64,000 bases of DNA, from NCBI RefSeq assembly GCF_002007105.1, contig NZ_MVBC01000001.1:372001-436000 (forward strand). Reading direction: 5' to 3'. Both the position numbers and the translations under genes were made by a program. This stretch comes from Hymenobacter sp. CRA2. GTDB taxonomy: Bacteria; Bacteroidota; Bacteroidia; Cytophagales; Hymenobacteraceae. The notes beneath the pieces were generated by a model that did no database searches, had not been told where the DNA came from, and saw only the letters and a list, made by a program, of their open reading frames with translations. Below are positions 6,866 to 25,277 of the stretch, in pieces (positions within the stretch are counted from its first letter, which is position 1; every line of letters begins with the position of its first letter).

Positions 6866-8143
6866 ATGGCCCAGACCTCTCCCCCACCCGTTTCCACCCC
6901 ACCCAAAACCGCCGGCCTGCTCAGCGCCGTGGTTGTGGTAGCTGCCCTCGGCTACTTCGTCGATATCTACGACCTGATCCTGTTCAGCATCGTGCGCGTC
7001 GAAAGCCTCAAGTCGTTAGGCATTACGGCACCGGCTGAGCTGACCAGCCAGGGCACCCACCTGATTTCCATGCAGATGGGCGGCATGCTGCTCGGCGGCA
7101 TCCTCTGGGGCATCCTTGGGGATAAGCGTGGGCGCCTCTCGGTGCTCTTCGGCTCCATCCTCATGTACTCGCTGGCCAACATTGCCAACGGTTTCGTGCA
7201 GAGCATCGAGCAGTACGCCTGGCTGCGGCTGATTGCCGGCATCGGGCTGGCCGGGGAGCTGGGTGCGGGCATCACGCTGGTATCCGAGACGTTGCCCAAG
7301 GAAAAGCGTGGCTACGGCACCATGATAGTGGCCACCGTGGGCGTGTCGGGCGCCATGCTGGCCTACTGGGTGGGCGCTGAGTTGGGCTGGCGCAACGCCT
7401 ACTTCGTGGGCGGTGCACTGGGGCTGGCGCTGCTGCTGCTGCGCGTGGGCGTGTTCGAGTCGGGCATGTTTGAGCAAGCCAAGCACCAGGATGTCTCGCG
7501 CGGCAACTTCTTCGCCCTGTTCACCAACGGTCCGCGGCTGCTGAAGTACCTCAAGTGCTTGCTCATTGGCGTGCCGCTGTGGTTCGTGGTAGGCATCCTG
7601 ATTACGTTGGCGCCCGAGTTTGGCCGCGCGCTGGGCGTGCAGGGCGAGGTATCGGCCGGGCTGGCCGTGTTCTGGTGTTACTTCGGGCTGGTGTTCGGCG
7701 ACTTTGCCAGCGGCGCCCTGAGTCAGCTGCTGCGCAGCCGCAAGCGCGCCCTGCAACTATTCCTGCTGCTGTGCGGCATCGTTATGGCGGCGTACCTGTA
7801 CCTGCTGCACGGCGCATCCACCACGGCCTTTTACCGCCTGTGCTTCGTGATGGGCATTTCAGTGGGCTTCTGGGCCTTGTTTGTGACGGTGGCGGCCGAG
7901 CAGTTCGGCACCAACCTGCGGGCCACCGTGGCTACCACGGCGCCCAATTTTGCCCGCGGCTCGGTGGTAGCACTCGTGCCCATTTTCAACGGCTTGGCGG
8001 CCAGCCTCGGCACCGGCTCCACGCCCAATCTGATTGGCAGCGGAGCTATTGTGGGCGCGGTGTCGCTGCTGCTGGCCTTCTGGGCCGTGAGTACGCTGCC
8101 CGAAACGCACGGCAAAGACCTGGACTACGTGGAAGTCAGCTAA
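6866..8143 (+). CDS. MFS transporter
   Basis: Twelve-segment major facilitator superfamily permease, 425 residues, probably taking up a small organic solute with protons. The first segment contains an acidic pair (VDIYDLILF) as in the metabolite:H+ symporter and sugar-porter groups. The loop between segments 2 and 3 has the MFS signature in the form GILGDKRGRLSVLFGS, and segment 5 carries GLAGELGAGITLVSE. The end (LPETHGKDLDYVE) is the usual PET/PETxG tail of sugar- and acid-porter-like MFS proteins. The substrate cannot be told from sequence. The gene has its own terminator and starts 79 bp after the preceding lipoprotein. Confidence 0.9.
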   Translation: MAQTSPPPVSTPPKTAGLLSAVVVVAALGYFVDIYDLILFSIVRVESLKSLGITAPAELTSQGTHLISMQMGGMLLGGILWGILGDKRGRLSVLFGSILMYSLANIANGFVQSIEQYAWLRLIAGIGLAGELGAGITLVSETLPKEKRGYGTMIVATVGVSGAMLAYWVGAELGWRNAYFVGGALGLALLLLRVGVFESGMFEQAKHQDVSRGNFFALFTNGPRLLKYLKCLLIGVPLWFVVGILITLAPEFGRALGVQGEVSAGLAVFWCYFGLVFGDFASGALSQLLRSRKRALQLFLLLCGIVMAAYLYLLHGASTTAFYRLCFVMGISVGFWALFVTVAAEQFGTNLRATVATTAPNFARGSVVALVPIFNGLAASLGTGSTPNLIGSGAIVGAVSLLLAFWAVSTLPETHGKDLDYVEVS

Positions 8144-8167
8144 CCTTTTGGCGCTTTCTGCGTCTTT

Positions 8168-8193
8168 CCACCCCGGCCCCACGGTCGGGGTGG
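8168..8193 (+). terminator. terminator after MFS transporter
   Basis: Eight-bp perfect stem CCACCCCG / CGGGGTGG followed by TTTATTT, 25 bp after the MFS stop codon. Confidence 0.7.
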
Positions 8194-8307
8194 TTTATTT
8201 ACCGGGCGGCTGTCCCTCAAGAGCAGCTCCGGCAAAGCTTCCGTAATATGCGGAACTGACGATGTGCACGGTGCGTATTCACCGGTAACCACCTACTTCC
8301 TCTGACA

Positions 8308-8583
8308 ATGAAAGCCTTACCATACCTCGGCCTGCTCGGCGCACTGCTGCTGACCAGCCCGGCCCGCGCCCAGGTGCCGCCGCCCACATCGGATAACCGC
8401 CCCGGCACCGCGCAGGCCCCTTCGCAGCCCAATCAGCCCACGGCCATGCCCCAGATAAGCGCCCCTACGCAGAAGCCTATGCAGGCCAACAAGGAGCGGG
8501 AAAAAGCACAGGAAAACCTGGCTAAAGAGCGGGAAAAAGCCGCCCGCGACGAACAAAAAGCCCGGCAACGCGGTCAAAACTAA
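8308..8583 (+). CDS. small secreted hypothetical protein
   Basis: A 91-residue protein with a clear Sec signal peptide (MKALPYLGLLGALLLTSPARAQ), a Pro/Gln/Thr-rich disordered stretch (residues 23-55) and a highly charged tail built of Lys/Glu/Arg (NKEREKAQENLAKEREKAA), probably one helix. No enzymatic motif is seen. Such short charged periplasmic proteins are frequent in Hymenobacter-like genomes, without assigned roles. It precedes the DUF6526 gene by about 45 bp. Confidence 0.7.
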   Translation: MKALPYLGLLGALLLTSPARAQVPPPTSDNRPGTAQAPSQPNQPTAMPQISAPTQKPMQANKEREKAQENLAKEREKAARDEQKARQRGQN

Positions 8584-8627
8584 CTGCCTCTGCTCCTACT
8601 TTTACGCTCCCCTTCTTCCCCTTGCGC

Positions 8628-9071
8628 ATGGCCGCAGCTCAATTCACCCGCCGCTATTATTGGCTGCACCACTTCGTCGTCACGCCGCTGAGCCTGGTGC
8701 TGGCGATATACACTGGCCGCCGCTATGCCGCCGTGGCCGGCACCGATTCCGACGATTCCCGGATCTGGTTTTGCTTGGTTGCCCTGGCCGTGCTGCTCCT
8801 GCTGACCGTGGTGATGCTGCGCCAGCACTACGCCCTGAAGCTGCAGGACCGCTTGGCCCGACTGGAAGTACGCCAGCGCTACTTCGAGCTGACCGGGCAA
8901 CGCTTTCAGCCGTTGGAGGCCCGGCTCACCCTCGGCCAGGTTCTGTCGCTGCGCTTCGCTGGCGACGCTGAGCTGCCCGCCCTGGCCACGGCCGCCGCAA
9001 CCGAGCAGCTGAAACCGGCTGCCATCCGGGAGCGGATTCAAGATTTTCAAGCCGACCCCATGCGGGTCTGA
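8628..9071 (+). CDS. DUF6526 family membrane protein
   Basis: A 147-residue protein with two membrane segments (WLHHFVVTPLSLVLAIYTG near residues 11-30 and WFCLVALAVLLLLTVVML near 45-62). They are followed by a cytoplasmic helical region with the family hallmark ALKLQDRLARLEVRQRYFELTG. DUF6526 proteins are found mainly in Bacteroidota and their role is unknown. The ATG at 8628 is preferred over a TTG two codons upstream. Confidence 0.85.
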   Translation: MAAAQFTRRYYWLHHFVVTPLSLVLAIYTGRRYAAVAGTDSDDSRIWFCLVALAVLLLLTVVMLRQHYALKLQDRLARLEVRQRYFELTGQRFQPLEARLTLGQVLSLRFAGDAELPALATAAATEQLKPAAIRERIQDFQADPMRV

Positions 9072-9170
9072 TTTTTTCGACGCGTGACTGAGCTAGGCCA
9101 AAGATGAACGCATGACCGTTCTTTCATCGGCCTATTGACTCAGCTACTCGTCTACTCTTTTCCCTTTCTC

Positions 9171-9473
9171 ATGATTCTTTACAACGTAACCAGCAGCGTC
9201 GACCCGGAAGTAGCCGAAGAATGGGTGAGCTACATGCGCGACGAGCACATGCCCGACGTGATGGCCACCGGCTACTTCGTGAAAAGCCAGCTGCTGCGCC
9301 TGCTCAACGAAGAAAACGACGGCTACACCTACGCCGCTCAGTACTACTGCATCAACACCGACCAGCTCGATGAGTACCAGCGCATGGCCGCTCCCGGCCT
9401 GAGCGCCAACCTTGAAACGCGGTTTCCGGGCCAGTACGTATCGTTCCGCACGGTGCTGGAGGTACTGGACTAA
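9171..9473 (+). CDS. DUF4286 family protein
   Basis: A 100-residue soluble protein with the DUF4286 start MILYNVTSSVDPEVAEEWVSYM and an end with the typical FPGQYVSFRTVLEVL. The fold is a ferredoxin-like alpha/beta dimer of the ABM monooxygenase type, but no catalytic function is known. The frame is open further upstream; the ATG at 9171 fits the family N-terminus exactly. Confidence 0.88.
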   Translation: MILYNVTSSVDPEVAEEWVSYMRDEHMPDVMATGYFVKSQLLRLLNEENDGYTYAAQYYCINTDQLDEYQRMAAPGLSANLETRFPGQYVSFRTVLEVLD

Positions 9474-9508
9474 GCCAGCCCGGAGCGGCCGCTCCTGGTA
9501 TTGGAAAT

Positions 9509-9574
9509 AACAAAGCTGCAGCGCAGCGGTACGGCTCTAGGGAGAGACCGATGCCGTTGCGCTGCAGCTTTGTT
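9509..9574. terminator. bidirectional terminator between convergent genes
   Basis: Perfect 17-bp inverted repeat (9509-9525 with 9558-9574, beginning AACAAAGCTGCAGC) between the + gene ending at 9473 and the - gene ending at 9649. A-rich and T-rich flanks suit termination in both directions. Confidence 0.75.
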
Positions 9575-9648
9575 GTTCTTCGCGTATCCGTAAGCAACAG
9601 GCCATGGACCGCACTGCTCCTCTCCAGAGCCGTCGCAGCAGCGTTCCG

Positions 9649-10152
9649 TTAGCCTCGGACGGCCGCTTCTACCTGCGGGTCGCAGCTGTAGGCGCGCAAC
9701 TGCTCGGCGGTCAGGTTGCCGTTGTACCACTCCGGGTCGAGGTTGGCGCCGATGCGCTTGTAGAAGCCGATGGCTGGCTCGTTCCACTCCAGCACCTGCC
9801 ACTTCAGGCGGTGCGCGCCGGTGCGCCGGGCTTCGGCCACCACTGCGTCAAACAGCTTGCGCCCGATGCCGGTGCCGCGGGCGGCTTCGGTCACCACCAG
9901 GTCTTCGAGGTAAAGCATGCGGCCCTTCCAGGTGGAATAGGCCGTGTAAAACAGCGCAATACCCAGAACGCCCTGTTCCTCGGTTTCGGCCACGAAGAAG
10001 CTGAAGATGGGCGCGGGCCCGAACCCGTCGCGGCGCATGTCGTCGAGCGTATTGGTGACTTCCTCGGGGGCGCGCTCGTACACGGCCAGCTCCACGATGA
10101 GCTCGTGGACACGGGACAAATCGGCTTCGGTGCCGCGGCGGATGGTAAGCAT
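9649..10152 (-). CDS. GNAT family N-acetyltransferase
   Basis: Transfers an acetyl group from acetyl-CoA to an amine on a small molecule or protein. The 167-residue protein is a single GNAT domain: N-terminal MLTIRRGTEADLSRVHELI, the beta4 strand GRMLYLEDLVVTEAARGTGIGRKL with the acetyl-CoA pyrophosphate-binding pattern RGTGIG, and the C-terminal WNEPAIGFYKRIGA. It most resembles the spermidine/diamine N-acetyltransferase-like group (YLEDLVV, AIGFYKRIGA), but the substrate is not certain. Confidence 0.92.
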   Translation of the reverse strand: MLTIRRGTEADLSRVHELIVELAVYERAPEEVTNTLDDMRRDGFGPAPIFSFFVAETEEQGVLGIALFYTAYSTWKGRMLYLEDLVVTEAARGTGIGRKLFDAVVAEARRTGAHRLKWQVLEWNEPAIGFYKRIGANLDPEWYNGNLTAEQLRAYSCDPQVEAAVRG

Positions 10153-10231
10153 GGGCTGAATTAACGATTAATAATGAGTACTGGACAGCGGGCGGCGCGG
10201 CTACCCGCGCTTCACGGGCCTAACCGTAGCC

Positions 10232-10273
10232 ACAAAAAACAATGAGCAACAACCCGCTGGGGCCATTGCTCAT
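10232..10273 (-). terminator. terminator of small lipoprotein gene
   Basis: Reading the minus strand, a stem ATGAGCAA/TTGCTCAT (10242-10249 with 10266-10273) is followed by a T6 run (the A-run at 10234-10239 on the plus strand). Confidence 0.65.
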
Positions 10274-10300
10274 CATTGGTATTGACCAAGGTCAACCGGC

Positions 10301-10531
10301 TTACATCACCGGCTGCATCTTCTTGATGACTTTGGTGGCGTTGACGGCGCTCAGCTCCTGATCGGCTTGCTGCTGGGCCACGGCGGCCGAGTCTTTGCCG
10401 GCGGCGGCCGGAGGCAGCGTGGGCAGCGGGGCCGAGGTCATGTCGTCTTTCTTCTCGTAGTCAGGGTTGCTGCAGGCCGAAACCGACAGCATAGCGCCGG
10501 CCACGAGGCCGAGCATCAGCATTTTTTTCAT
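10301..10531 (-). CDS. small hypothetical lipoprotein
   Basis: A 76-residue lipoprotein: MKKMLMLGLVAGAMLSVSAC is a textbook signal with lipobox SVSAC, followed by a charged and Pro/Ala-rich tail (SNPDYEKKDDMTSAPLP) and a short helix. No domain is recognised. The ATG at 10531 begins the signal peptide; the frame is open upstream, but that extension has no coding character. It carries its own terminator. Confidence 0.75.
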   Translation of the reverse strand: MKKMLMLGLVAGAMLSVSACSNPDYEKKDDMTSAPLPTLPPAAAGKDSAAVAQQQADQELSAVNATKVIKKMQPVM

Positions 10532-10679
10532 ATCTGGAGCGGAAAAGGTCAAGGCAGGCGAATTTCGCGGCGCAAGATACAACCACGGCGTTAACTGATT
10601 ACGCTGCTTCCCTCGTTTTGTGACGCGAGCCAGCCGTACGCGCGGCGCCAGTTCTCCGCGGCCACGGTGGATTGGCGGC

Positions 10680-12890
<2,211 letters not shown>

Positions 12891-13002
12891 AGTACGGAGG
12901 GAATGAGGTAGTGAGTCGGTGCAAAATACACGGCGGCGGGCAGTAGTAAGAACAGGCAAGCCGCCGTGGTGCGCACCCTGGCCCAAATCCTGCGCGCCGT
13001 TC

Positions 13003-13689
13003 TTACCGCACCGTGGCCGTGGTCACCTTCCCAATCTTGGGGATGATCTGAATGAGGAAGCGCTTGTTGTCGCCCTCGCGGCGGCCGGCGTAGCGCCCGG
13101 TACCGAAGAAGCCGCTACCGCCGATGATCAGCTCCACGGTGCGGTCCTGCCCGAAGCGCAGGCCGTTCTGCTGCCAGAAGTTCGAGAGGTTCAGGGCCCG
13201 GCGGTAGCTGAGCTGGTAGGTACTCTGCTCCTCGCGCTGGTTGCGCGGGTCGCCCTGCGGGTAGCGGGCTGCCATGCCTTCCACGATGACGAGGTAGCGC
13301 ACCGGCAGATCGGTGCGGATGGCGCGCAGGCGCTCCTGCAGCAGGCGGCCGGCGCGCAGCAGGGCGGGCTTGTACTGCTCCTGGATTTCGTCGCGGCCAG
13401 CCTTGAACTGCACGTCCACGCGCAGCTCGTACCGCTCGTTTTGCGGGTCGTAGCGGAAATAGTCACCCTCCAAACGCCGCAAGGACTCGCGGATGCGCTG
13501 AATCTGCTCCAGCTCCTGGGCTTTCACCTTCAGCTCGCCCAGCAGCCGGCGCTGACTGGCTTCCCGGTCGCGGAACAGCTTGAAGCTGTAGACAAACAAG
13601 ACCAGCATGACCACAAATAGGGAGGTCATCAGGTCCACGTAGCTGGGCCAGAAGAAGTCGGAGCGTTGTTGGTCGTCGGAACCGGGCAT
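13003..13689 (-). CDS. MotB/ZorB-like stator subunit with OmpA-type domain
   Basis: Predicted peptidoglycan-anchoring partner of the MotA-like channel encoded immediately upstream. The 228-residue protein has one membrane segment (residues 17-36, YVDLMTSLFVVMLVLFVYSF) containing Asp19. This sits exactly where MotB, TolR and ZorB carry the proton-binding aspartate. A short coiled coil (about 37-75) and a C-terminal OmpA-like domain follow (about 85-225: YELRVDVQFKAGRDEI, VRYLVIVEGMAARYP, YQLSYRRALNLSNFWQQNG). The domain is divergent from canonical OmpA_C. It is the last gene of the cluster; in Zorya defence loci ZorA and ZorB stand in the same order. Confidence 0.85.
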   Translation of the reverse strand: MPGSDDQQRSDFFWPSYVDLMTSLFVVMLVLFVYSFKLFRDREASQRRLLGELKVKAQELEQIQRIRESLRRLEGDYFRYDPQNERYELRVDVQFKAGRDEIQEQYKPALLRAGRLLQERLRAIRTDLPVRYLVIVEGMAARYPQGDPRNQREEQSTYQLSYRRALNLSNFWQQNGLRFGQDRTVELIIGGSGFFGTGRYAGRREGDNKRFLIQIIPKIGKVTTATVR

Positions 13690-13710
13690 CGGGTGTAATC
13701 AAAAAACGGC

Positions 13711-13824
13711 TGTCATCCTTCATCTGGCGTACGGCGCTAGCCGAAGGACCTTCTCACGTCCGATAGTGAACCTAACGCTGATCGTTCACGCGTGGCAAAG
13801 TCCTTCGCGTTGCTCAGGATGACA
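13711..13824. repeat. REP-like inverted repeat between stator genes
   Basis: The 164-bp spacer between the two stator genes contains nested inverted repeats: TGTCATCCT (13711-13719) with AGGATGACA (13816-13824), and CGAAGGAC (13742-13749) with GTCCTTCG (13800-13807). The TGTCATCCTGAGC/CGAAGGAC theme recurs in altered form at 32160-32290, as expected for a dispersed intergenic repeat. Confidence 0.65.
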
Positions 13825-13853
13825 TAGTAAACAACTGACACGGGAAACAACCT

Positions 13854-15317
13854 CTACTCCTCGCGCACCCCGCCGAAGAGCTTGTCCATCCCGCGCTGCC
13901 AGCGGTTTTTGGCCGTGGCTCTGCGCAGAATCTGGTTCATCACCGACAGTTGCTCCAGCAGCTTGGTATCCACTTGCGTATCGGAGTCGATTTTGCGCAG
14001 CAATTCGCGCTGGGTGGCCGTTACGTCGCGGGCCAGTACTTCCTGGTTGACTTTCACGTCCTTGAGCGGGTCGAGCTGGCGCATGATGCGCTCGAAGGCA
14101 TTGTCCTGGTTGATGCGGTCGAAGTACTCGCCCCACTTCTCGTAGGCGCGCTGGGCGTCGCGTTCGTGGTGCTCCAGGCGGCGGCGCATCAGTTCGGTGA
14201 GGTGCTGGGAGGCTTGGTCGAAGTACTGCTCGGAGCGGGCCGCGAGGTTGCCCATCTCCACCTGGTGGCGCTGGAAGAAGTCGAGCTGCTGCTGAATGAG
14301 GTTATCGTGCTGGCCGATGTACTGGCCCAGGTTGTTGATGCCGCGCTCGAAGCCGGTGAGACGGTCGAGGATGCCACCTACTACCCTGCCCGACTCGGCG
14401 CCCTTGTCGAGCATCTGGTTGAGCTGCTGCTGGTAGGCGGTGAACTGCCCGAACAGCTCGGCCGACTCGCGCACCTTGTCGAACACGGCCAGATTGGCCT
14501 GCGCCATCTTGTCGAAGCCAACTTCCTCCAGCTTCACCAGGAAGTCGCGCTGCACCCGAATATTCTCAGTGATGGTGTTCAGGATGGGCTCAAACAGCGT
14601 CACCTTGCCCACAAAGTCCTGGTTGAACGCGTCGAGCACGCCCTTCAGGGTACTCAGGCTGGCCGACATGTCGTTGTGCAGAATGGGCAGCAGCCGGGCC
14701 TGCAGGAAGGTGAAGTATTGGTTCTGCCGCTGGTCGCGCTGCTGGCGGGCGTTACGCAGCAGGTTATTGCCGATGAGGGTGAGCAGCAGGCCCATAAACG
14801 AGCCCGTCATGGCAATGAGCACGCCGGTGAGGAAGGGCGTGAGCGAGGTGTCATCCGTTACGCCGCGGCGGGCTATGCTGACCAGACCCAGAATTACGCC
14901 CAAGAAGGTACCGAGCAAGCCCAGATACAGCGGCGTAGCCACGTTGGCCTGCACGGCATTGTCGGGCCCTTGGCCCTGGCGGGTGGCAATATCCTTGAGG
15001 ATGTTGAAATCGGCCGCGGCGCCCTTGTTGTGGCGCAGGTAGGCGTTGGTGTCCTGCACGATTTCGCGGAAGTCGGTCGAGGTATCATCCGCACGGATGA
15101 TGTCCACGGCGTAAGCATCGGCCGGGGCGTCGGCGGCGTAGTCGGGCAGGTCCACGGTGCCGTCGGGCGTGACGAGGCGGCGCTCCACGCGCAGCGTGTC
15201 CTTGGGCGGGTAGAGCTCAGCCAGCCGGGCTACCTGGGTGCGCGTCCGCAGAAACGTGAGAATCTGCAGGCCCACGATGATGGCCACCACGGCGACTTCA
15301 AGGATTATTTCAAGCAT
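13854..15317 (-). CDS. MotA/ZorA-like ion channel with long cytoplasmic tail
   Basis: Predicted inner-membrane stator subunit. The 487-residue protein has an N-terminal anchor (about residues 3-22) and a cytoplasmic loop. Two membrane helices carry the MotA/TolQ/ExbB look: about 126-147, PLYLGLLGTFLGVILGLVSI, and about 161-188, LTGVLIAMTGSFMGLLLTLI. The remaining 300 residues are helical and coiled-coil (RRLEHHERDAQRAYEKW, ATQRELLRKIDSDTQ), far longer than in MotA or TolQ. A long intracellular tail is the hallmark of ZorA in Zorya systems. Its partner follows on the same strand after a REP-containing spacer. No ZorC, ZorD or ZorE homologue is in the window. Confidence 0.85.
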   Translation of the reverse strand: MLEIILEVAVVAIIVGLQILTFLRTRTQVARLAELYPPKDTLRVERRLVTPDGTVDLPDYAADAPADAYAVDIIRADDTSTDFREIVQDTNAYLRHNKGAAADFNILKDIATRQGQGPDNAVQANVATPLYLGLLGTFLGVILGLVSIARRGVTDDTSLTPFLTGVLIAMTGSFMGLLLTLIGNNLLRNARQQRDQRQNQYFTFLQARLLPILHNDMSASLSTLKGVLDAFNQDFVGKVTLFEPILNTITENIRVQRDFLVKLEEVGFDKMAQANLAVFDKVRESAELFGQFTAYQQQLNQMLDKGAESGRVVGGILDRLTGFERGINNLGQYIGQHDNLIQQQLDFFQRHQVEMGNLAARSEQYFDQASQHLTELMRRRLEHHERDAQRAYEKWGEYFDRINQDNAFERIMRQLDPLKDVKVNQEVLARDVTATQRELLRKIDSDTQVDTKLLEQLSVMNQILRRATAKNRWQRGMDKLFGGVREE

Positions 15318-17222: not shown

Positions 17223-17831
17223 TTATTCAAAATCAAGTTTCGCTAAAGAGTAGGTGCGATTCTGAACCTGCTTATCCTGGGTCTGGAAGCAAATAGCAAC
17301 TCGCTCAGGTGACACAATGCTTGCATCACAGCGCCACCACATAGATGATATGCTTCGCATGTATTGATTGATCGGGAAGGGCGAGAGTTGCTCCAGATTG
17401 TAGCGTCTGAGCAGGTGGCCTTGACCATCGTAGACAACCATTACATCAACACCGTAGCCCATTGAAGACCAATTGTCGAACGTTACCACGTAGCGGCCGT
17501 CGTTCGATACCAATGCAGTTACCGGGGCTATTCGGTTGATCAGGCTTTCCTGCCACAGCAGTTGCGGACCGTTCGCAGTGCGCCGATACAGCATGGCATG
17601 ACACGGTACAACGGTTGTGTCCCGCGAGCTGAACCGCTTTTGGCGGTTCGGCTTTGCCTTGCGCCATTGGTAATACTTGTCAGGAACAAGTAATGGGACA
17701 ACTCGAACAAAATGGCTGCTATCCGCACTGTAATAGTCGTGCGTAGTCGGGGGCGCCCACGAATCGGCCAGCAGCAGCGTAGGCTGAACGAGCGTAAGCA
17801 ACCACAAAAAAGCGCCGGTCTTGAACTTCAT
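17223..17831 (-). CDS. secreted hypothetical protein lodged in the cluster
   Basis: A 202-residue protein with a signal peptide (MKFKTGAFLWLLTLVQPTLLLADS). The body contains a single propeller-like strand pair (VTALVSNDGRYVVTFDNW, VDVMVVYDGQGHLLRRYNL) and an unusually Trp-rich stretch (SISSMWWRCDAS). Family not recognised. Its base composition is visibly lower in GC than the genes on either side. It is separated from the actin-like gene by a spacer with a strong hairpin and looks like a later lodger rather than a core component. Confidence 0.75.
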   Translation of the reverse strand: MKFKTGAFLWLLTLVQPTLLLADSWAPPTTHDYYSADSSHFVRVVPLLVPDKYYQWRKAKPNRQKRFSSRDTTVVPCHAMLYRRTANGPQLLWQESLINRIAPVTALVSNDGRYVVTFDNWSSMGYGVDVMVVYDGQGHLLRRYNLEQLSPFPINQYMRSISSMWWRCDASIVSPERVAICFQTQDKQVQNRTYSLAKLDFE

Positions 17832-17945: not shown

Positions 17946-20900
17946 TTAGCCTTGCAGCAAATCCCGCCCGAGGTTGAACAACGACTGCTTCAGCGGCAGG
18001 AAAAACAGCGTTTCAGGCAGGGTTTCCTCCGAGCCGAGGGTGCGCTCCAGCTGGTGCAGGCCCAGGTTCAGGCTGTCCTCCACCTCGCGCTGCATGAACT
18101 CCAGCACGCGGGCCCGGTCGATGTCCACGCCGACTTCGCGCATGAGCGGGGCCACGTCATCGTTGACGAGCACCAGCTCCAGGAACTTGCGCATGTTGTC
18201 GAGCACGGCCGTGCGCATGTCGGCGTCCACGCCGCGCGGCTTCAGGCGCAGCGCCCCGATTTCCGGCCCGGCTTCGGCCCCCAGCAGGCGCACGTTCTGG
18301 ATGCTGTCCACGTCCGGCGCCGACTGGCTTTCCTCGAACAGCACGCCGCCGTTGGTGGTGGCTTCCTTGGGGTTATCGGCCAGGATGACGCGGAAATTCT
18401 GCGGCGGCTCCACGCCCGTCACGGCCTTGAGCACGGCCTTGGAAATCCGCTCGATGGCGCCCATGCTGCTGCCCCCGGCCAGCAGGCGCAGGTACAGGCT
18501 GCCCTTGCCCGAGAAGCAAAGGTAGCGCGGCAGCTTCAGGCCCAGATGCTGGGTGAGCTGCCCCACGTGGTAGATGATGCTGGTGTAGTGCAGGTAAAAC
18601 AGCACCCGCAGCTGCCGGCCCTTGCCCAGCGCCAGGCTCTGCGAGAAGCGCAGGGCGTCGTCGTAGAGGAAAAGCAGGGAAGTCACGTCGGCCGAGCCGA
18701 AGTCGTTGTTTTTCAGCGCGGCCCGCAGGTAGCCCTTGAACTCCTGGTTTTGCTCCGAGTCAGGCAGGCTTTCCACGTGGCCCACGCCGAGGCGCAGCAG
18801 GCCGTTCTGCTTGGGTGCACCCTGCACGCGGGCGTACCCGTCGCCCCACAGGTCGTTGCCGGCGAAGCGGAACGAGGAGCTGTAGGCTGGGCGCGAGTCG
18901 GCAAACACGAGCAGGTCGGTGGTACCGCCACCGATGTCGATGTTGACCACGTTTTCATCCCGGCTCGGCACCACTTGGTTCGTGGCCGTGAGGTAGTAGT
19001 ACGGCGCCACCGATTCGGTGAGGGTGAGGGTGTCGCGGCGGGTGCGGAACACCTGCTGGAAGGCCTGGTCCCACTTGTCCTTGAACTGGTTGCGCAGGAA
19101 GGCATCGAAGCTCAGCGGGGCAAACCACACCACGCGGGTGTCCTCCATGATGCCGCCGTTCAGGGCTGCTTTGTGCTTGAGCAGCAGCATCACCTCGCGG
19201 AAGAAGGCCTCAATGCGCGTCACGCCGCTCGGGTCCAGCTCGGCCGACCACTTCAGGTTGGTCACGAAGCGGTTCTGGGGCAGCTCGGCGGTGTTTTCGG
19301 TGTTGATGCTGAAGCCGATGTTGATGTTGCCCAGCACCCGTGCCGGCTCGTTGGGGAAGGTGCTCGTCTCGCACACCGCCGTGCGCACCGGGAAGGCGTA
19401 GGCCGCGCCGCCGTCGCCCACGAAGGAGGGCACGAACTCGCGGTTCTGCAGCTCGGCAATCTGCGCCCACAGCTGCTGCGCGCCCTGCCGGTAGCGCTGG
19501 TAGGGCGAGAGGCCCAGGTCGGGCAGCGGCGCGTGCAGCCAAATGACCTGCTGGTCCAGCTCGCCAATGCTGAGCGGGCGCGGGTGGCTGCTCGGGCCGT
19601 CGGAGTAGGCAATGTGGGTGTTGGTGGTGCCGAAGTCAACGGCGAAAGTGAAGCGGCGGGTGCCGCGGTCCAGCTCCTTCCAGCGCGGCACCATCAGCCC
19701 GCGGGCCGGCGGCAGGCCGGGACCGGCCGGGCACACCAGCTCGGCCACGTCGAAGTGCGTGCCGGTGACTTCGTAGTAGGTGCTGCCGGCGGTGCTGATG
19801 CTCTTGCGCGTGCGCTCGTAGCGGGTGGCGCGGCGGGCGGCGCCCTGGTCCGTTATCCGCTCCCCGCCCACGAAGAACTCCACCGCGTACTGCTTCTGCA
19901 GCTGCGCCGGGCCGTTGTCGGCGTCCACCAGCATCACCTTGTACAGGTCGTTGTACTCAGGCTGCTGGCGGAATTTGTAGAACGGGAACACGCCCAGCCC
20001 CACGTTGGCCCGCACGATGCGACCCTTCTCGGGAATCTCGCGCCCCAGCTCGTCCTTGGGGTTCTGCGGGTTGGTGTAGTAGCTGCGCTCCAGGGTGATG
20101 AAGCGCCCCTGCTGCACCGGCACCTTCAGCGACACGCGCACGTGGTTCAGGTCGATGGTGAAGTGCAGCAGCTCGGCCAAGTCGTGCTCGGTGAAGTACT
20201 CGAAGAAGGCCGGCTGCAGCGGCAGCAGGTACGGAAAGCGCGCCCGGCCCTGCGAATCGGCCCCGTACTGGAAGGTCACGCGGCCGGTGTGGTAGCGCTC
20301 CGAGTTCAGCTCGTAGGGCAGCTCCACCAAGGAGTCGGCCAGCAAATCACCCACCGTCAGGTACGGGTACTTGAAGCCTTTGCCGGGCAGTACGCGGCTG
20401 CTCATGGGCTGCTCGTCGACGTAGGGCACGGCGGTGCGGTCGTCCCAGGGCTGGCCGTTCAGGTAGTTCACGCCGCCCATAGCCAGGTTGGGGCGCAGCA
20501 CCAGCGGCTTCACCACGCCGGGTGCCAGGTCGCGGGTGGGCTGGATGAACAGGTCCGACGACACCACGGCCGTCTGGTCGGCGCGGCCGGGCAGCGGGAT
20601 GTTGCGCACGTAGGCCGGGTTGCCCTGGGCGTCGGTGAGGCCGGGGTAGCGGGTGGCAAACTGCTGGGCGTTCCGGTCGCCCGTCAGCTGCATCTGGCTG
20701 ATGCGGTTGCGGTCGAGCGTACCGAACACGCGGTGGGCAAAGTTGCGGTCCTGCAGGCGCGGGAAGGTCAAAAACAGCTCATACACGAAGTCCTGAAACT
20801 GCGGGTCGCGCTGCTCCAGGGCCACGTACTGCTGATCAAAGTAGCGGCCACCGGCGCGGGGGCGCTCCATGTCGAGCACCGGCACGGCGGGCGCGGTGAA

Positions 20901-21413
20901 GAGCATGGTCAGCGGCGAGGTGCCGCCCAGCAGGCGCGGCCCGCCCGGCAGCCCCGGCGACTCGTAGAAAATCAGGTACAGGTCGGGCGTTTCGCGGAAC
21001 CGCTCGTCCTGCCAGAACAGGCGCAGGGTTTCGCCCAGCAGGCGGGTGTTGGGGTCCTGCTGCATGCGGCCCAGCTCGGCCTCGGCGTTCCAGCGGCGCA
21101 ACGTGATGCGGCGGCCGGCCTGGGAGTAGAGGTGGTAGTTGTAGAGCAGCTCCAGCAAGTCCCAGTAGTGCGACACCAGCTCGTGGTAGACCGAATTGGG
21201 GTTGCGCGAGCCTTCCCGGGCCACGAAGTCAAACGCGGTTTCAAAGAGGTGCATCCGCGCGAAGGGCGTCGGGATGGACACCGCCAGGTTGCGCGTACGG
21301 CCGCCCGTGGGGTCGGTGATGGTATTGATTTCGGTGCTCGTGAGCGGACCGGTCTGTTGCCAGCCCTGGATTTGCTGCGAGCCGCTGTTGTGCAGGCGAA
21401 GGACTTTGGGCAT
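17946..21413 (-). CDS. giant protein with Hsp70/actin-fold ATPase domain
   Basis: An 1155-residue cytoplasmic protein. The C-terminal half is an actin/Hsp70/sugar-kinase fold ATPase. Phosphate-1 loop FAVDFGTTNTHIAYSDG has Asp593, phosphate-2 loop NIDIGGGTTDLLVF has Asp826, and an adenosine-like motif CFSGKGSLYLRLLAGG lies near residue 961. The first 580 residues are a large beta-rich region (LAELLHFTIDLNHVRVSLKV, KFRQQPEYNDLYKVMLVD) that I do not recognise. Residues after about 1000 contain a helical tail. No signal peptide or membrane helix is seen. It may be related to SrfB-type Hsp70-like proteins, but this was not tested. It lies between the tubulin-like and stator genes; a shared complex is inferred. 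Confidence 0.85.
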   Translation of the reverse strand: MPKVLRLHNSGSQQIQGWQQTGPLTSTEINTITDPTGGRTRNLAVSIPTPFARMHLFETAFDFVAREGSRNPNSVYHELVSHYWDLLELLYNYHLYSQAGRRITLRRWNAEAELGRMQQDPNTRLLGETLRLFWQDERFRETPDLYLIFYESPGLPGGPRLLGGTSPLTMLFTAPAVPVLDMERPRAGGRYFDQQYVALEQRDPQFQDFVYELFLTFPRLQDRNFAHRVFGTLDRNRISQMQLTGDRNAQQFATRYPGLTDAQGNPAYVRNIPLPGRADQTAVVSSDLFIQPTRDLAPGVVKPLVLRPNLAMGGVNYLNGQPWDDRTAVPYVDEQPMSSRVLPGKGFKYPYLTVGDLLADSLVELPYELNSERYHTGRVTFQYGADSQGRARFPYLLPLQPAFFEYFTEHDLAELLHFTIDLNHVRVSLKVPVQQGRFITLERSYYTNPQNPKDELGREIPEKGRIVRANVGLGVFPFYKFRQQPEYNDLYKVMLVDADNGPAQLQKQYAVEFFVGGERITDQGAARRATRYERTRKSISTAGSTYYEVTGTHFDVAELVCPAGPGLPPARGLMVPRWKELDRGTRRFTFAVDFGTTNTHIAYSDGPSSHPRPLSIGELDQQVIWLHAPLPDLGLSPYQRYRQGAQQLWAQIAELQNREFVPSFVGDGGAAYAFPVRTAVCETSTFPNEPARVLGNINIGFSINTENTAELPQNRFVTNLKWSAELDPSGVTRIEAFFREVMLLLKHKAALNGGIMEDTRVVWFAPLSFDAFLRNQFKDKWDQAFQQVFRTRRDTLTLTESVAPYYYLTATNQVVPSRDENVVNIDIGGGTTDLLVFADSRPAYSSSFRFAGNDLWGDGYARVQGAPKQNGLLRLGVGHVESLPDSEQNQEFKGYLRAALKNNDFGSADVTSLLFLYDDALRFSQSLALGKGRQLRVLFYLHYTSIIYHVGQLTQHLGLKLPRYLCFSGKGSLYLRLLAGGSSMGAIERISKAVLKAVTGVEPPQNFRVILADNPKEATTNGGVLFEESQSAPDVDSIQNVRLLGAEAGPEIGALRLKPRGVDADMRTAVLDNMRKFLELVLVNDDVAPLMREVGVDIDRARVLEFMQREVEDSLNLGLHQLERTLGSEETLPETLFFLPLKQSLFNLGRDLLQG

Positions 21414-21415
21414 AT

Positions 21416-21604
21416 GCGCCTCACCCCCCGGCCCCCTCTCCGAAAAGGAGAGGGAGTGTGTTCGGGAGGGATTTTGTTTTAGAGGTTACTGTTTGTTTTC
21501 AAGTGCAGTGCGCTGACGTCTCCCCGCAGCCTATCAGAACAAAATCATTGCTGACTTCAGGCTCCCCCTCTCCTTTTCGGAGAGGGGGCCGGGGGGTGAG
21601 GCGC
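21416..21604. repeat. long inverted repeat separating actin-like and tubulin-like genes
   Basis: Two 26-bp arms are perfectly complementary (21416-21441, beginning GCGCCTCACCCCCCGG, and 21579-21604). Each arm contributes to a local hairpin, CCCTCTCC/GGAGAGGG, around a GAAAA or TTTTC loop. A third related copy lies at about 32210-32240. This is a REP/BIME-type dispersed repeat. Confidence 0.8.
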
Positions 21605-23046
21605 TACACCACCTTCACCTTGTCCCGGAAGGCCTCATCCGTGACGTCATACATCAGCGTAATGAGCTTGCGGAAGTTGTCGGCGTCCTGCACCTTCTTT
21701 TCGCGGGTGTTCAGCGCGTCGAGCAGGTAGTTGCGGCTAATGCCTTTGCTGAAGAAGCCCGTTTCCACCGGCTTGCCCTGAATCATCAGGTTGAAGTCGT
21801 CGGTGGTGAGGTTGAAGGGACGGAACGAGCGGCGGTTCTGGCTCAGCTCAGTCAACCAGGCGTCCACGCCGAAGTCGGGGCTGTGCAGGAACTGCTCGAG
21901 CTGACGGAAGATGGGCTCGTTTTTCTGCGCGTACTGCAGGTTGAGGTTCTTCGCGTAGGGCGCCTCGTCGGAGCCCATGTGCTGCTTGTGGTAGCGCGAG
22001 AAGTACAGCAGCTGCGTCAGATTTTGGGCCACCTGCTCCTTGGTTTCGGTGGGCAGGTGCTGGAACTGCACGTCGGGCGTATCCGTCTCCAGGCCGAATT
22101 CGTGGAACAACGGGCCGTTGTTCGAGCGGATGTCGCCGGCCGAGTAGCTCATGAAGTCCACGATGCTCAGCGCGGCCAGCAGCTCGATGATGTGGGCCTT
22201 GTTGCGCTGCCCGGTGCCGCCCGGCTGGTTGTCGTAGGGTGTGTCGGGCGTGTCGGCCAGGTAATACAGGGCGTCGAGGCCCGGCAGGTGGTTTTCGTAG
22301 TAGCCGAGCGCGGCCTTGGTCTTCGTGAGGAAGTTGTTCGAGTCGATGACCTGGTTGTCCTCGCTCTGCAGGGCGAAGTAGGGCATCACCGTCACGGCCC
22401 CGGTCAGCGCGTCGCGCAGGTAGCGGGAGTTGCTCAGGCGGGTGTTCGGGTCCTTGAGGTTCTTGAGCAGCAGCGGGAAGCCCGAGGCGCCGGTGCCGCC
22501 GAAGATGCTGCTGATGAAGAATACCCGGTCGTCCTGCTGGAAGTTGTCGGCGAAAAAACGCATTTCCGGCGACTCCACGATGCGGTTCAAGACCACCGAG
22601 CCCACGTTGGGCGAGCCGCGGAAACCGATGGTCAGCGGGCTTTCCAGGTTGTCCTGGGTGAACAAGGCTTCCACCAGCGCCTTCGATTCCACCGGCAGGT
22701 TGTTGTAGCCCAGGTAGTCGCGGAAGCTACGGTTGATGCCGCCGAAATCGAACACGAAAGTGTCCTTCACCGAGCCGTTCACGTCCTGGCTGATGGAGGA
22801 GAGCGTGCTGATATCGGTCTTGAAGAAGCCCTCTTCGCGCGGCCCGAGGCGCTTGTGAATCTGCTGATAGGTTTGCAGCAGCTGCACGGTGCGGTTCATG
22901 TCCGCGTTCTGCGCGTCCGGGTCGATGATGATAGGCACCACCTGCTGGCAGTTGGGCAGATCCACGCCCGCGGCCAGCAGCATCGTCAGGGAGCGGACCA
23001 CCCGGGAGCCGGTGCCGCCGATGCCGAAAAGAAAGAGTTTAGCCAT
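21604..23046 (-). CDS. tubulin/FtsZ-like GTPase (Tubulin_2-type)
   Basis: A 480-residue soluble protein of the tubulin-like superfamily, expected to bind GTP and possibly form filaments. The start MAKLFLFGIGGTGSRVVRSL has the glycine loop of the Rossmann N-terminus (G8-I-G-G-T-G13). The tubulin signature appears as FISSIFGGTGASGFPLLL (G183-G-T-G-A-S188), where FtsZ has GGGTGTG. Downstream TKTKAALGYYENHLPGLDALYYL and the C-terminal half have no clear FtsZ similarity. ATG 23046 is chosen because the Rossmann strand starts there; the upstream extension is spacer. It is the key element of the cluster. Confidence 0.85.
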   Translation of the reverse strand: MAKLFLFGIGGTGSRVVRSLTMLLAAGVDLPNCQQVVPIIIDPDAQNADMNRTVQLLQTYQQIHKRLGPREEGFFKTDISTLSSISQDVNGSVKDTFVFDFGGINRSFRDYLGYNNLPVESKALVEALFTQDNLESPLTIGFRGSPNVGSVVLNRIVESPEMRFFADNFQQDDRVFFISSIFGGTGASGFPLLLKNLKDPNTRLSNSRYLRDALTGAVTVMPYFALQSEDNQVIDSNNFLTKTKAALGYYENHLPGLDALYYLADTPDTPYDNQPGGTGQRNKAHIIELLAALSIVDFMSYSAGDIRSNNGPLFHEFGLETDTPDVQFQHLPTETKEQVAQNLTQLLYFSRYHKQHMGSDEAPYAKNLNLQYAQKNEPIFRQLEQFLHSPDFGVDAWLTELSQNRRSFRPFNLTTDDFNLMIQGKPVETGFFSKGISRNYLLDALNTREKKVQDADNFRKLITLMYDVTDEAFRDKVKVV

Positions 23047-23650: not shown

Positions 23651-25012
23651 TCAGTCGGGTTGTACGGAAAGTGGCACGCGCAGCACATCGGCAGCATTCG
23701 TGCCAGCTTGGCGGCCCGCCAGCAGCTTCTGCAGGCCGTCGAGCTGCCGGCTGAGGGCAAAGGTTTGAGAACCAGGCCGGCTGTCGTCGGTGGTGGTCCA
23801 TTTTTCTACCCAGGTGGGGCGCGCCGCGGGCAAGGCCAGCGTCAGGTCCTGCTTGCTGCGGGGCTTGCCGGTCACGCGCACCGTTACGAAGTGCGTGTAG
23901 GCGGCTTCGGGGCCGCCGCTGCGCTTGGCTGCCTCAGTGGCGGCTTCCACTTTCACCACTTTGGCTTCGGTGGTATTGCCGCGCAGGGCCAGGTTCTTCT
24001 GCAGGTACGCCGGGGCCTGAAACAGCTCCGGCAGCTGCGCCAGGTCGAGGCCAACGACAAACTCAGCCGGCTCCTGCGCCGAAGCTTCCTCAATGGCGAC
24101 GGCGTGGCCACCCGCCCCAGCCTGCTTGCCCGCATCGGCCACAAACCAACTGCCTTTGCGCTGGAAGCGGCTGAGCACGGAATTAGGCACTTCCAGGGCC
24201 GGCAATCCAAAGTGAGCTTGCTCGCCCTGCAGGCCTTTCATCAGCGTGGCGTCGAAGCGGCCGACCAGCTCGGCCGGGCCCAGCACCCACATGTAATACG
24301 GAATGGGCTCGGCGCAGCAGTTCGGCACCTTACCCACGCGACCTTTCATGGCCGGGTAGTACGTACCCTTGAAGTCGGAGGTGAAGCCGTACACCGACAC
24401 GGCCAGGTCCTGGCGGCTGTGGGCCAGCGCATCGGCAATATCGGTGTTGATGTAGGGCACGTCGCCGGCGCGCTCGGGCGAGTAGATGAAGTCGGAGATG
24501 ATGACGCTGACCGTGCCCTCGCCGAGGTAGCGGTTGGCGACTGTATCGAGGATGGCCGGAATGCTGGTGCTTTTGGCCGGCTGGCTGATGCCGCGGCGCA
24601 CCGTTTCGCTCAGAGCCTTGTAGGAGTCGGTCAGGGGGCGGTCGGCAATGCGGAAGTAGCCGCGTTGCGCCACGCGCTGGTCGCGCTCCAGGCCCGAGAG
24701 CCACTCCGACACTTGCTGCTGAAACTGCGTGGTGCGGGCATCGGCGCCGCTGGCGGGCATGAAGCCCTGCATGGAACCGGATACCTCCAGAAATACATTG
24801 ACCCGGGGGAAGCGGGCTTCTCCGGTGCTGGGCGTAGCGGGTTTAGCAGCTGCCTTCGACGGCGCCGGTTGGGCCGGCGACTGGGTGGCCGGGGCTTCGG
24901 GAGAACTAGGTTTGTCGGACTGGCCCGCGTCTATATCGGAGCGGGAATAGCAGCCGGCCAGCAGCAGGGCAGCGGCAGGCAGCGTGTGGCGGACGAAGAA
25001 AGAAATGCGCAT
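23651..25012 (-). CDS. vWA-like domain lipoprotein
   Basis: First gene of the cluster in transcription order. The 453-residue lipoprotein begins MRISFFVRHTLPAAALLLAGC (lipid-modified Cys21), followed by a Pro/Ala-rich linker. A von Willebrand A-like domain follows, with RVNVFLEVSGSMQGF at residues 70-84 and a later TVSVIISDFIYSPERAG. The metal-ion site normally reads DxSxS; here it is E76-V-S-G-S80, so metal binding may be altered. The domain continues to about residue 220, and a C-terminal 200-residue region is of unknown fold. The lipid anchor places it on the periplasmic or outer face. ATG 25012 is preferred because it opens the lipoprotein signal. Confidence 0.82.
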   Translation of the reverse strand: MRISFFVRHTLPAAALLLAGCYSRSDIDAGQSDKPSSPEAPATQSPAQPAPSKAAAKPATPSTGEARFPRVNVFLEVSGSMQGFMPASGADARTTQFQQQVSEWLSGLERDQRVAQRGYFRIADRPLTDSYKALSETVRRGISQPAKSTSIPAILDTVANRYLGEGTVSVIISDFIYSPERAGDVPYINTDIADALAHSRQDLAVSVYGFTSDFKGTYYPAMKGRVGKVPNCCAEPIPYYMWVLGPAELVGRFDATLMKGLQGEQAHFGLPALEVPNSVLSRFQRKGSWFVADAGKQAGAGGHAVAIEEASAQEPAEFVVGLDLAQLPELFQAPAYLQKNLALRGNTTEAKVVKVEAATEAAKRSGGPEAAYTHFVTVRVTGKPRSKQDLTLALPAARPTWVEKWTTTDDSRPGSQTFALSRQLDGLQKLLAGRQAGTNAADVLRVPLSVQPD

Positions 25013-25277
25013 CGGTCCGAACATACGCACCGCCACGCGGCGGCGCAATGCAGCGTACTGGTAAGGGGCTTGTGGGGTTGCCGAATGGAACGCTCAAATC
25101 ACAGGAAAATTTTATTTCGTTGGTGAACCCCTACTGACAGAAGGCCGTTTTACTGGTCTCTACCGCGTCTTGCTTTAAGCATTTGCTTCAAAAAGTCATA
25201 AAACACCCTTTTATCTGGCAATCCGCTGTTCTGCGGCCTGCGTAAAGCAGCAGGAACGGACCCCGCCAGCCTTCGAC

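Follow-up and report, generated by a model that had tools for sequence, protein, structure and literature searches.

A ZorAB-like motor encoded with tubulin- and actin-like proteins in Hymenobacter

The question raised by this locus is what an ion-driven motor resembling ZorA/ZorB of the Zorya defense system does in an operon of cytoskeletal-type genes. The locus lies in a 64,000-nucleotide stretch of the Hymenobacter sp. CRA2 genome (contig NZ_MVBC01000001.1, positions 372,001 to 436,000; hereafter the window), where an operon on the minus strand encodes, in this order, a VWA-like lipoprotein, a small membrane protein, an FtsZl1-type tubulin-like protein, a 1155-residue ATPase, a bitopic protein and the two motor subunits, the channel A and its partner B. 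We favor, with middling confidence, the reading that these genes encode one trans-envelope machine that is powered by the ZorAB-type motor, coupled to cytoskeletal-type nucleoside triphosphatases (NTPases) and most likely guards the envelope.

The motor pair and its probable place beside ZorAB

The channel subunit (13854..15317, minus strand; 487 residues) was evaluated using Pfam, PADLOC, alignment, trees and sequence periodicity. It matches Pfam MotA_ExbB (E=1.1e-4) and PADLOC ZorA2 (E=2e-6), and three hydrophobic segments can be read directly from its sequence at about residues 4-25, 128-150 and 160-184, the first transmembrane (TM) segment being separated from the second by a loop of ~105 residues. 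The 299 residues that follow the last segment are poor in Gly and Pro and show a hydrophobic periodicity that is maximal at 3.5 residues, corresponding to heptads, and we therefore read this tail as a coiled coil. Thr137, Ser173 and Thr180 are invariant in an alignment of 23 channel homologues and are candidates for a ring opposite the Asp of the partner. A sequence-only PDB search with the channel returned no relative, and the curated ZorA/ZorB models were both missed by far (NF041788, 20.5 of the 400 bits required; NF041792, 15 of 700 bits).

The partner (13003..13689, minus strand; 228 residues) was evaluated by PADLOC, alignment and a predicted model, and matches PADLOC ZorB1 (E=4.5e-11). 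Its single membrane helix contains Asp19, which is invariant in 20 of 20 aligned homologues, and the surrounding FW-x-SY-x-DLMT motif is mostly invariant among the same 20. The predicted model (predicted local distance difference test score, pLDDT, 74) has an OmpA/MotB-type domain for which ZorB (8qyd_F) is the second-best PDB match, and a sequence-only PDB search gave a weak match to ZorB and nothing else. The peptidoglycan-binding GHTD motif reads GMAA, with loss of His, Thr and Asp, although the Arg of LSxxRA (R164) and that of N-x-R (R210) are kept. The residues of ZorB I implicated in peptidoglycan binding are His186, Thr187, Arg203 and Arg254, and several of these matter for defense (PMC11890865). 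With the motif changed but both Arg residues kept, anchoring of the partner to the cell wall is plausible, not certain. The B subunits of sister motors associated with DarT, described below, have GMAA or GQ(A/S)S at the same position.

A preliminary description of this DNA had placed the pair at positions 13003-15317 and had ascribed to it MotA/TolQ helices followed by roughly 300 residues of coiled coil, an Asp19 in the single membrane helix of the partner, a divergent OmpA-type domain and the overall ZorA/ZorB plan, all of which our analysis bears out. Comparison with the nearest relatives gave ratios of nonsynonymous to synonymous substitution rates (dN/dS) of 0.08-0.29 for the motor genes; since the gene order is also kept at 22 other loci, neither motor reading frame is a chance occurrence. 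In the gap between the two genes (window positions 13690-13853) there is a long, imperfect inverted repeat (GTCATCCTGAGC ... GGATGAC), which is present in a single copy within the window and has a folding z-score of -1.7.

We placed the pair relative to reference pairs of Zorya type I, taken from L100, L110 and, along with genes for an EH-signature protein and a helicase, L120. Type II was represented by L107, in which ZorE2 matches at E=2.2e-84 and the PADLOC ZorA/ZorB models at E=1.6e-150 and 7.6e-84. The motor forms a clade of its own (support 99/99 and 100/100), separate from Zorya I and II. In the tree of whole-length A subunits this clade is sister to Zorya I+II (92/89). As the whole-length alignment placed MotA poorly, a core-only tree was built, in which the clade groups with Zorya as opposed to MotA and ExbB/TolQ (91/87) and Zorya again forms its own clade. 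The B subunits stand apart from both Zorya and MotB on a long branch (100/100). Profile comparison of the channel with ZorA gave a probability of 96.9 (E=1.6e-10) over 213 columns that include the tail, whereas that with MotA was not significant (probability 3) and that with the two ExbB/TolQ sequences of the same genome reached a probability of 66 over 54 columns. The partner profile is about equally close to ZorB II and MotB (E=1.1e-7 and 4.9e-9).

Taken together, the sequence comparisons argue that the motor pair is most likely a sister of ZorAB, outside Zorya itself. The tree proposed in the preliminary description as a check thus yields a clade nearest to ZorA among the references and not to MotA; kinship with ZorA over ExbB/TolQ is less firm, as the approximately unbiased test does not reject a grouping of the clade with ExbB/TolQ (p-AU 0.32). 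We considered filing the pair as Zorya and rejected this, the curated cut-offs, the partner genes and the tree position all speaking against it. Filing it with ExbBD/TolQR is less likely by tree and profile, with the same p-AU value stopping short of formal rejection.

The operon and its conservation

Homologues of the motor and of the other operon genes occur in the same order, within reach of the fetched flanks, at 22 other loci of Hymenobacteraceae and their kin, drawn from Hymenobacter, Solirubrum, Adhaeribacter, Pontibacter and Rhodocytophaga. The motor itself was found in 122 of 150 Hymenobacteraceae genomes, in all six genera. The motor pair keeps constant company with the tubulin-like protein, the actin-superfamily ATPase and the VWA-like lipoprotein and, at most loci, with the bitopic linker. 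The strongest purifying selection is seen in the tubulin- and actin-like genes (dN/dS 0.04-0.07 against the nearest relatives), with ~0.2 for the neighboring peptidase gene. The operon is an old, fixed and functional locus and in this it differs from an island-borne defense system. No nucleases were found around the Hymenobacteraceae operons within the fetched flanks. A prophage or phage origin was considered and rejected, six proteins having no PHROGs match.

The tubulin-like protein (21604..23046, minus strand; 480 residues) is related to FtsZl1/Tubulin_2. It matches Pfam Tubulin_2 (E=9.8e-5; 22.2 of 27 bits) and Tubulin (E=7e-4), both under the curated cut-offs; 9-10 of 11 homologues match the Pfam tubulin models as well (9 of 11 at E<=0.01), and the T1 motif GIGGTGS and the T4-like motif FGGTGASG are invariant or nearly so. 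The 1155-residue protein (17946..21413, minus strand) carries the phosphate motifs DFGTTN and DIGGGTTD, likewise invariant or nearly so, and the model of its C-terminal half matches MreB, ParM and Hsp70 (best E=8.8e-7; pLDDT 61, moderate confidence). In this model the C-terminal half has the predicted core fold of an actin/Hsp70-superfamily ATPase along with the phosphate motifs.

No gene like ZorC, ZorD, ZorE or ZorF/ZorG was matched in the window operon by Pfam, PADLOC or the curated models, and a Pfam search of the operon found neither a P-loop GTPase nor a protein kinase. The earlier proposal that cytoskeletal-type genes replace the rest of Zorya therefore stands as regards the missing ZorC, ZorD and ZorE and, by the fold of the model, the actin-like protein; for the tubulin it draws on Pfam matches that fall under the cut-offs and recur among homologues.

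The first gene of the operon (23651..25048, minus strand) encodes a periplasmic lipoprotein with the lipobox LLAGC and a MIDAS-type (metal-ion-dependent adhesion site) motif, FLEVSGSM, in which L-E-x-S..M-x-G is invariant in 12 homologues; its true start is probably downstream of the TTG. The ExSGS-type motif is conserved and the Pfam search gave no VWA match, so the protein is VWA-like by motif only. The small membrane protein P7 (23139..23531, minus strand; 130 residues) is conserved at this operon position. The bitopic protein P3 (15687..17174, minus strand; 495 residues) has homologues in the same place and consists of a signal peptide, a periplasmic part, a membrane helix at about residues 206-225, a Pro-rich linker and a C-terminal domain; shorter P3-like proteins occur in other families. 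Between P3 and the ATPase lies a lineage-specific insert of 202 residues (17223..17831, minus strand) that is not conserved, its only homologue among the 22 loci being in L002. The gaps flanking the motor genes in the window are 164-369 bp long. No Bacteroidetes promoter consensus was found 5' of the operon on the operon strand, a result that is uninformative.

Downstream of motor B lies a gene for an S9 prolyl oligopeptidase-like lipoprotein (10680..12890, minus strand). This neighbor is syntenic 3' of motor B in Hymenobacter, being present at all 15 loci of the Hymenobacter type, at most of them no more than 510 bp away, and apart from L018 the other genera do not have it there. Elsewhere the same slot behind motor B holds other exported hydrolases of the SNase, EEP or trypsin-like kind. 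Besides the usual copy, one genome of this family has a second, divergent, complete operon (L057; G448 C1:416000-435900), with a trypsin-like lipoprotein and one more VWA-type gene behind it. The host, whose genome belongs to Hymenobacteraceae, is described as a soil-type bacterium, and its genus is cultivable and non-pathogenic.

Relatives with nucleases and with DarT

Outside the family the motor is rare across the phylum (6 of 395 genomes) and patchy in another order (18 of 350 genomes). At 16 of 17 loci fetched from that order the operon is present with at most small variations, its genes often overlapping; L167 has no detected motor B. Nine loci (L055, L157-L160 and L163-L166) have SNase-like proteins, mostly lipoproteins, adjoining motor B in either orientation, and their catalytic residues are conserved when compared with the known SNase motif. 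Stand-alone HSDR_N-type proteins of ~350 residues lie beside the operon at nine loci (L152-L155, L159, L160, L163, L164 and L166), an EEP nuclease lies directly 3' of motor B at two, and a trypsin-like lipoprotein occurs at two; L162 has no nuclease neighbor. In a control with 16 genomes, 10 of 18 SNase genes lie within ~3.5 kb of the operon where ~0.1 would be expected, by our own count and estimate, and 9 of 11 short HSDR_N genes are also near it. The Hymenobacteraceae operons are closest, in a concatenated tree, to the HSDR_N- or EEP-associated loci L152, L155 and L156. At about ten loci, genes for a response regulator and for a TPR histidine-kinase-like protein lie upstream, which suggests regulated expression.

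Four motors of the same clade are found without tubulin and actin genes (cassettes in L024 from Robertkochia, 8616-13585; L025 from Symbiothrix, 7842-12154; L069, a Parabacteroides plasmid record, 10514-14636; L151, 9033-13318) and form one clade in the concatenated tree (93/90). Each is preceded by a coiled-coil protein with a terminal DarT domain (PF14487, E down to 4.5e-30). The DarT partner gene is of the DUF6939/NADAR-DarT1-like type and stands ahead of the motor or, in L024, encodes an ADP-ribosylglycohydrolase and is placed after the motor. L024 sits within a defense-like island that also encodes a methyltransferase and an OLD-like ATPase, and L069 is near an integrase. The window operon has no DarT. 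The preliminary description had set the locus against defense, a contrast that these sister motors make too sharp, as do the nucleases that are often neighbors of the nearest complete operons beyond the family.

The converse arrangement occurs in L051 (3249-12514), where an operon of VWA, P7, tubulin, actin and P3 genes has a one-TM SH3-domain protein in place of the motor. Since the motor is found without tubulin and actin at the DarT loci, and the core without the motor in L051, motor and modules are exchangeable. Relatives of the tubulin-like protein and of the actin-like protein (~1200-1300 residues) are followed at two further motor-less loci (L053, 368-8455; L054, 7172-16172) by proteins labeled TerD-like from sequence inspection only, which may connect the FtsZl1 kind with Ter stress systems.

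Tentatively, and with rather more doubt than belief, we suggest that these loci belong to an undescribed motor-powered conflict or envelope-guard family that is the sister group of Zorya. One ZorAB-like motor would there be joined to exchangeable modules, either cytoskeletal (on their own or together with SNase, HSDR_N or EEP nucleases) or DarT with its antitoxin. If this is true, the window would hold the first example of a rotary ion motor that works on an assembly of the tubulin/actin type.

A possible mechanism and comparison with known systems

In the machine that we favor, ion flow past Asp19 would turn or strain five A subunits around two wall-anchored B subunits, and the A tail would hand torque or a conformational signal to the submembrane tubulin-like and actin-like NTPases. 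The VWA-like lipoprotein and the bitopic protein would sense the periplasm and gate the motor, and the NTPase assembly would be reorganized when the envelope is breached locally or the cell wall is disturbed, entry of phage or DNA included. Relatives may have the same motor connected to enzymes that act on DNA (DarT, SNase, HSDR_N, EEP); no enzyme of this kind was found beside it in Hymenobacteraceae, and there it would serve a conserved chromosomal function. The near-core presence points to envelope upkeep and the partners of the relatives to a guard against invading DNA, and we lean toward an envelope guard with defense-like logic. Several observations weigh against this proposal. The coupling between A tail and NTPases is inferred from gene order, the tubulin assignment lies under the Pfam cut-offs, and a small comparison of the tubulin-like profile with the FtsZ of the relatives was not significant (probability 1.9), probably because the alignments on both sides are shallow. 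The peptidoglycan-binding His, Thr and Asp of ZorB are not kept, which leaves cell-wall anchoring unsure, and presence in 122 of 150 genomes at a fixed locus is untypical for a defense system.

That last point would sit well with a purely housekeeping role, in which the operon is the Bacteroidota form of the FtsZl1-VWA-OmpA machinery and remodels the envelope or cell shape, with the motor as its energy source. The spread over six genera, the same downstream neighbor across Hymenobacter, the purifying selection and the lack of an adjoining nuclease in Hymenobacteraceae all agree with it, as does the fact that FtsZl1 operons with VWA and OmpA proteins have already been described (PMC2875224). 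We nevertheless consider it unlikely, if deserving of serious weight, since outside the family the motor is patchy and flanked by SNase, HSDR_N and EEP proteins far beyond chance, and its sister motors go with DarT. Those same neighbors, together with the ZorA/ZorB kinship, the DarT cassettes with NADAR or ADP-ribosylglycohydrolase genes (one in the island with methyltransferase and OLD-like genes, one near an integrase) and the TerD-like genes adjoining tubulin and actin relatives, could instead indicate a true anti-phage or anti-DNA system, a new Zorya subtype with a tubulin/actin module and locus-specific hydrolases in place of ZorC-G. This seems improbable to us: no effector was found in the window or at any Hymenobacteraceae locus, the operon is near-core, syntenic and outside islands, and the motor falls outside Zorya in all trees and far below the curated cut-offs.

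An energizer of the ExbBD/TolQR kind, which would relay the proton-motive force to a partner in the outer membrane and be regulated by the cytoplasmic proteins, would account for the three TM segments, the unrejected p-AU and the profile similarity to the genome's own ExbB/TolQ pair. It is very unlikely given the long coiled tail, the OmpA-type B subunit, the better profile and tree match to ZorA and the separate ExbB/TolQ-type genes of the genome. The wide gaps around the motor genes in the window, and the loci at which motor and cytoskeletal core occur apart, might even suggest neighbors without a joint function, to which we give next to no credence because the same order recurs at the 22 family and kin loci and also, with genes that often overlap, at 16 of the 17 loci from the patchy distribution elsewhere.

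If the parts of the favored machine are indeed coupled, its ion-driven motor, rotary or lever-like, would work directly on NTPases of the tubulin- and actin-like kinds, for which, to our knowledge, there is no precedent in bacteria. The FtsZl1 loci, unexplained since 2010, would then gain an energy source and a testable mechanism. In the wider family the Zorya motor would be one branch of a modular set that uses DarT toxins, nucleases or cytoskeletal proteins, and the role of the ZorA tail thereby becomes a testable question. A search of the open literature, with most subscription journals outside its scope, found no paper linking ZorAB to tubulin or DarT, or FtsZl1 to MotA.

In 2010 Makarova and Koonin described operons in which FtsZl1 is accompanied by VWA and OmpA-domain proteins, a GTPase and a kinase, and predicted them to be membrane-remodeling systems (PMC2875224). 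The gene neighborhood of the window motor is close to these loci. Both have OmpA-type and membrane proteins in one operon and, as far as tubulin matches under the cut-offs and a MIDAS-type motif indicate for the window, FtsZl1-like and VWA-like secreted proteins; the OmpA-domain protein is read here as the B subunit of the motor. The 2010 loci, among which GTPase and kinase are frequent though not universal, encode FtsZl1 proteins of ~1000 residues with a long coiled coil and a C-terminal helical domain; no MotA/TolQ-type partner was named for them, and FtsZl1 was already noted in a Bacteroides (PMC2875224). The window protein, in contrast, is short (480 residues) and has no long coiled coil, and its operon is without GTPase or kinase and adds a ZorA-type channel and the 1155-residue actin-superfamily ATPase. 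Canonical long FtsZl1 loci of Bacteroidota (L058-L065) gave no match to the window motor. Judged by sequence, the window operon is a divergent relative of the FtsZl1-VWA-OmpA loci in which the ZorA-type channel is an added component. DarT1-NADAR and DarTG systems resemble the sister loci, where DarT and NADAR-like or ADP-ribosylglycohydrolase genes also accompany the motors; we know of no DarT system that carries a motor.

Among motors, a third use beside flagella and Zorya had been suggested for the pair. This count is too low, since the 5:2 plan of ZorAB and MotAB is shared with motors that power type 9 secretion/gliding, Ton and Tol-Pal (PMC11890865). With ExbBD/TolQR the window motor has in common three TM helices in the channel subunit and the core motif, and it differs in having an OmpA-type domain on B rather than the ExbD/TolR fold and a long tail on A. 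With flagellar MotAB it shares the 5:2-type motor family, the Asp in B and the OmpA domain; its channel has three TM helices instead of four and no profile similarity to MotA beyond chance, and flagellar genes are absent from the operon. From Zorya I and II it is set apart by a separate sister clade, the replaced GHTD, the ~105-residue TM1-TM2 loop, near-core presence in its family and an operon without ZorC/D, ZorE or ZorF/G, yet it is with ZorAB that it shares the MotA/ExbB-type channel with a long coiled cytoplasmic tail, a B subunit with a TM Asp and an OmpA-type domain, and profile similarity across both channel and tail.

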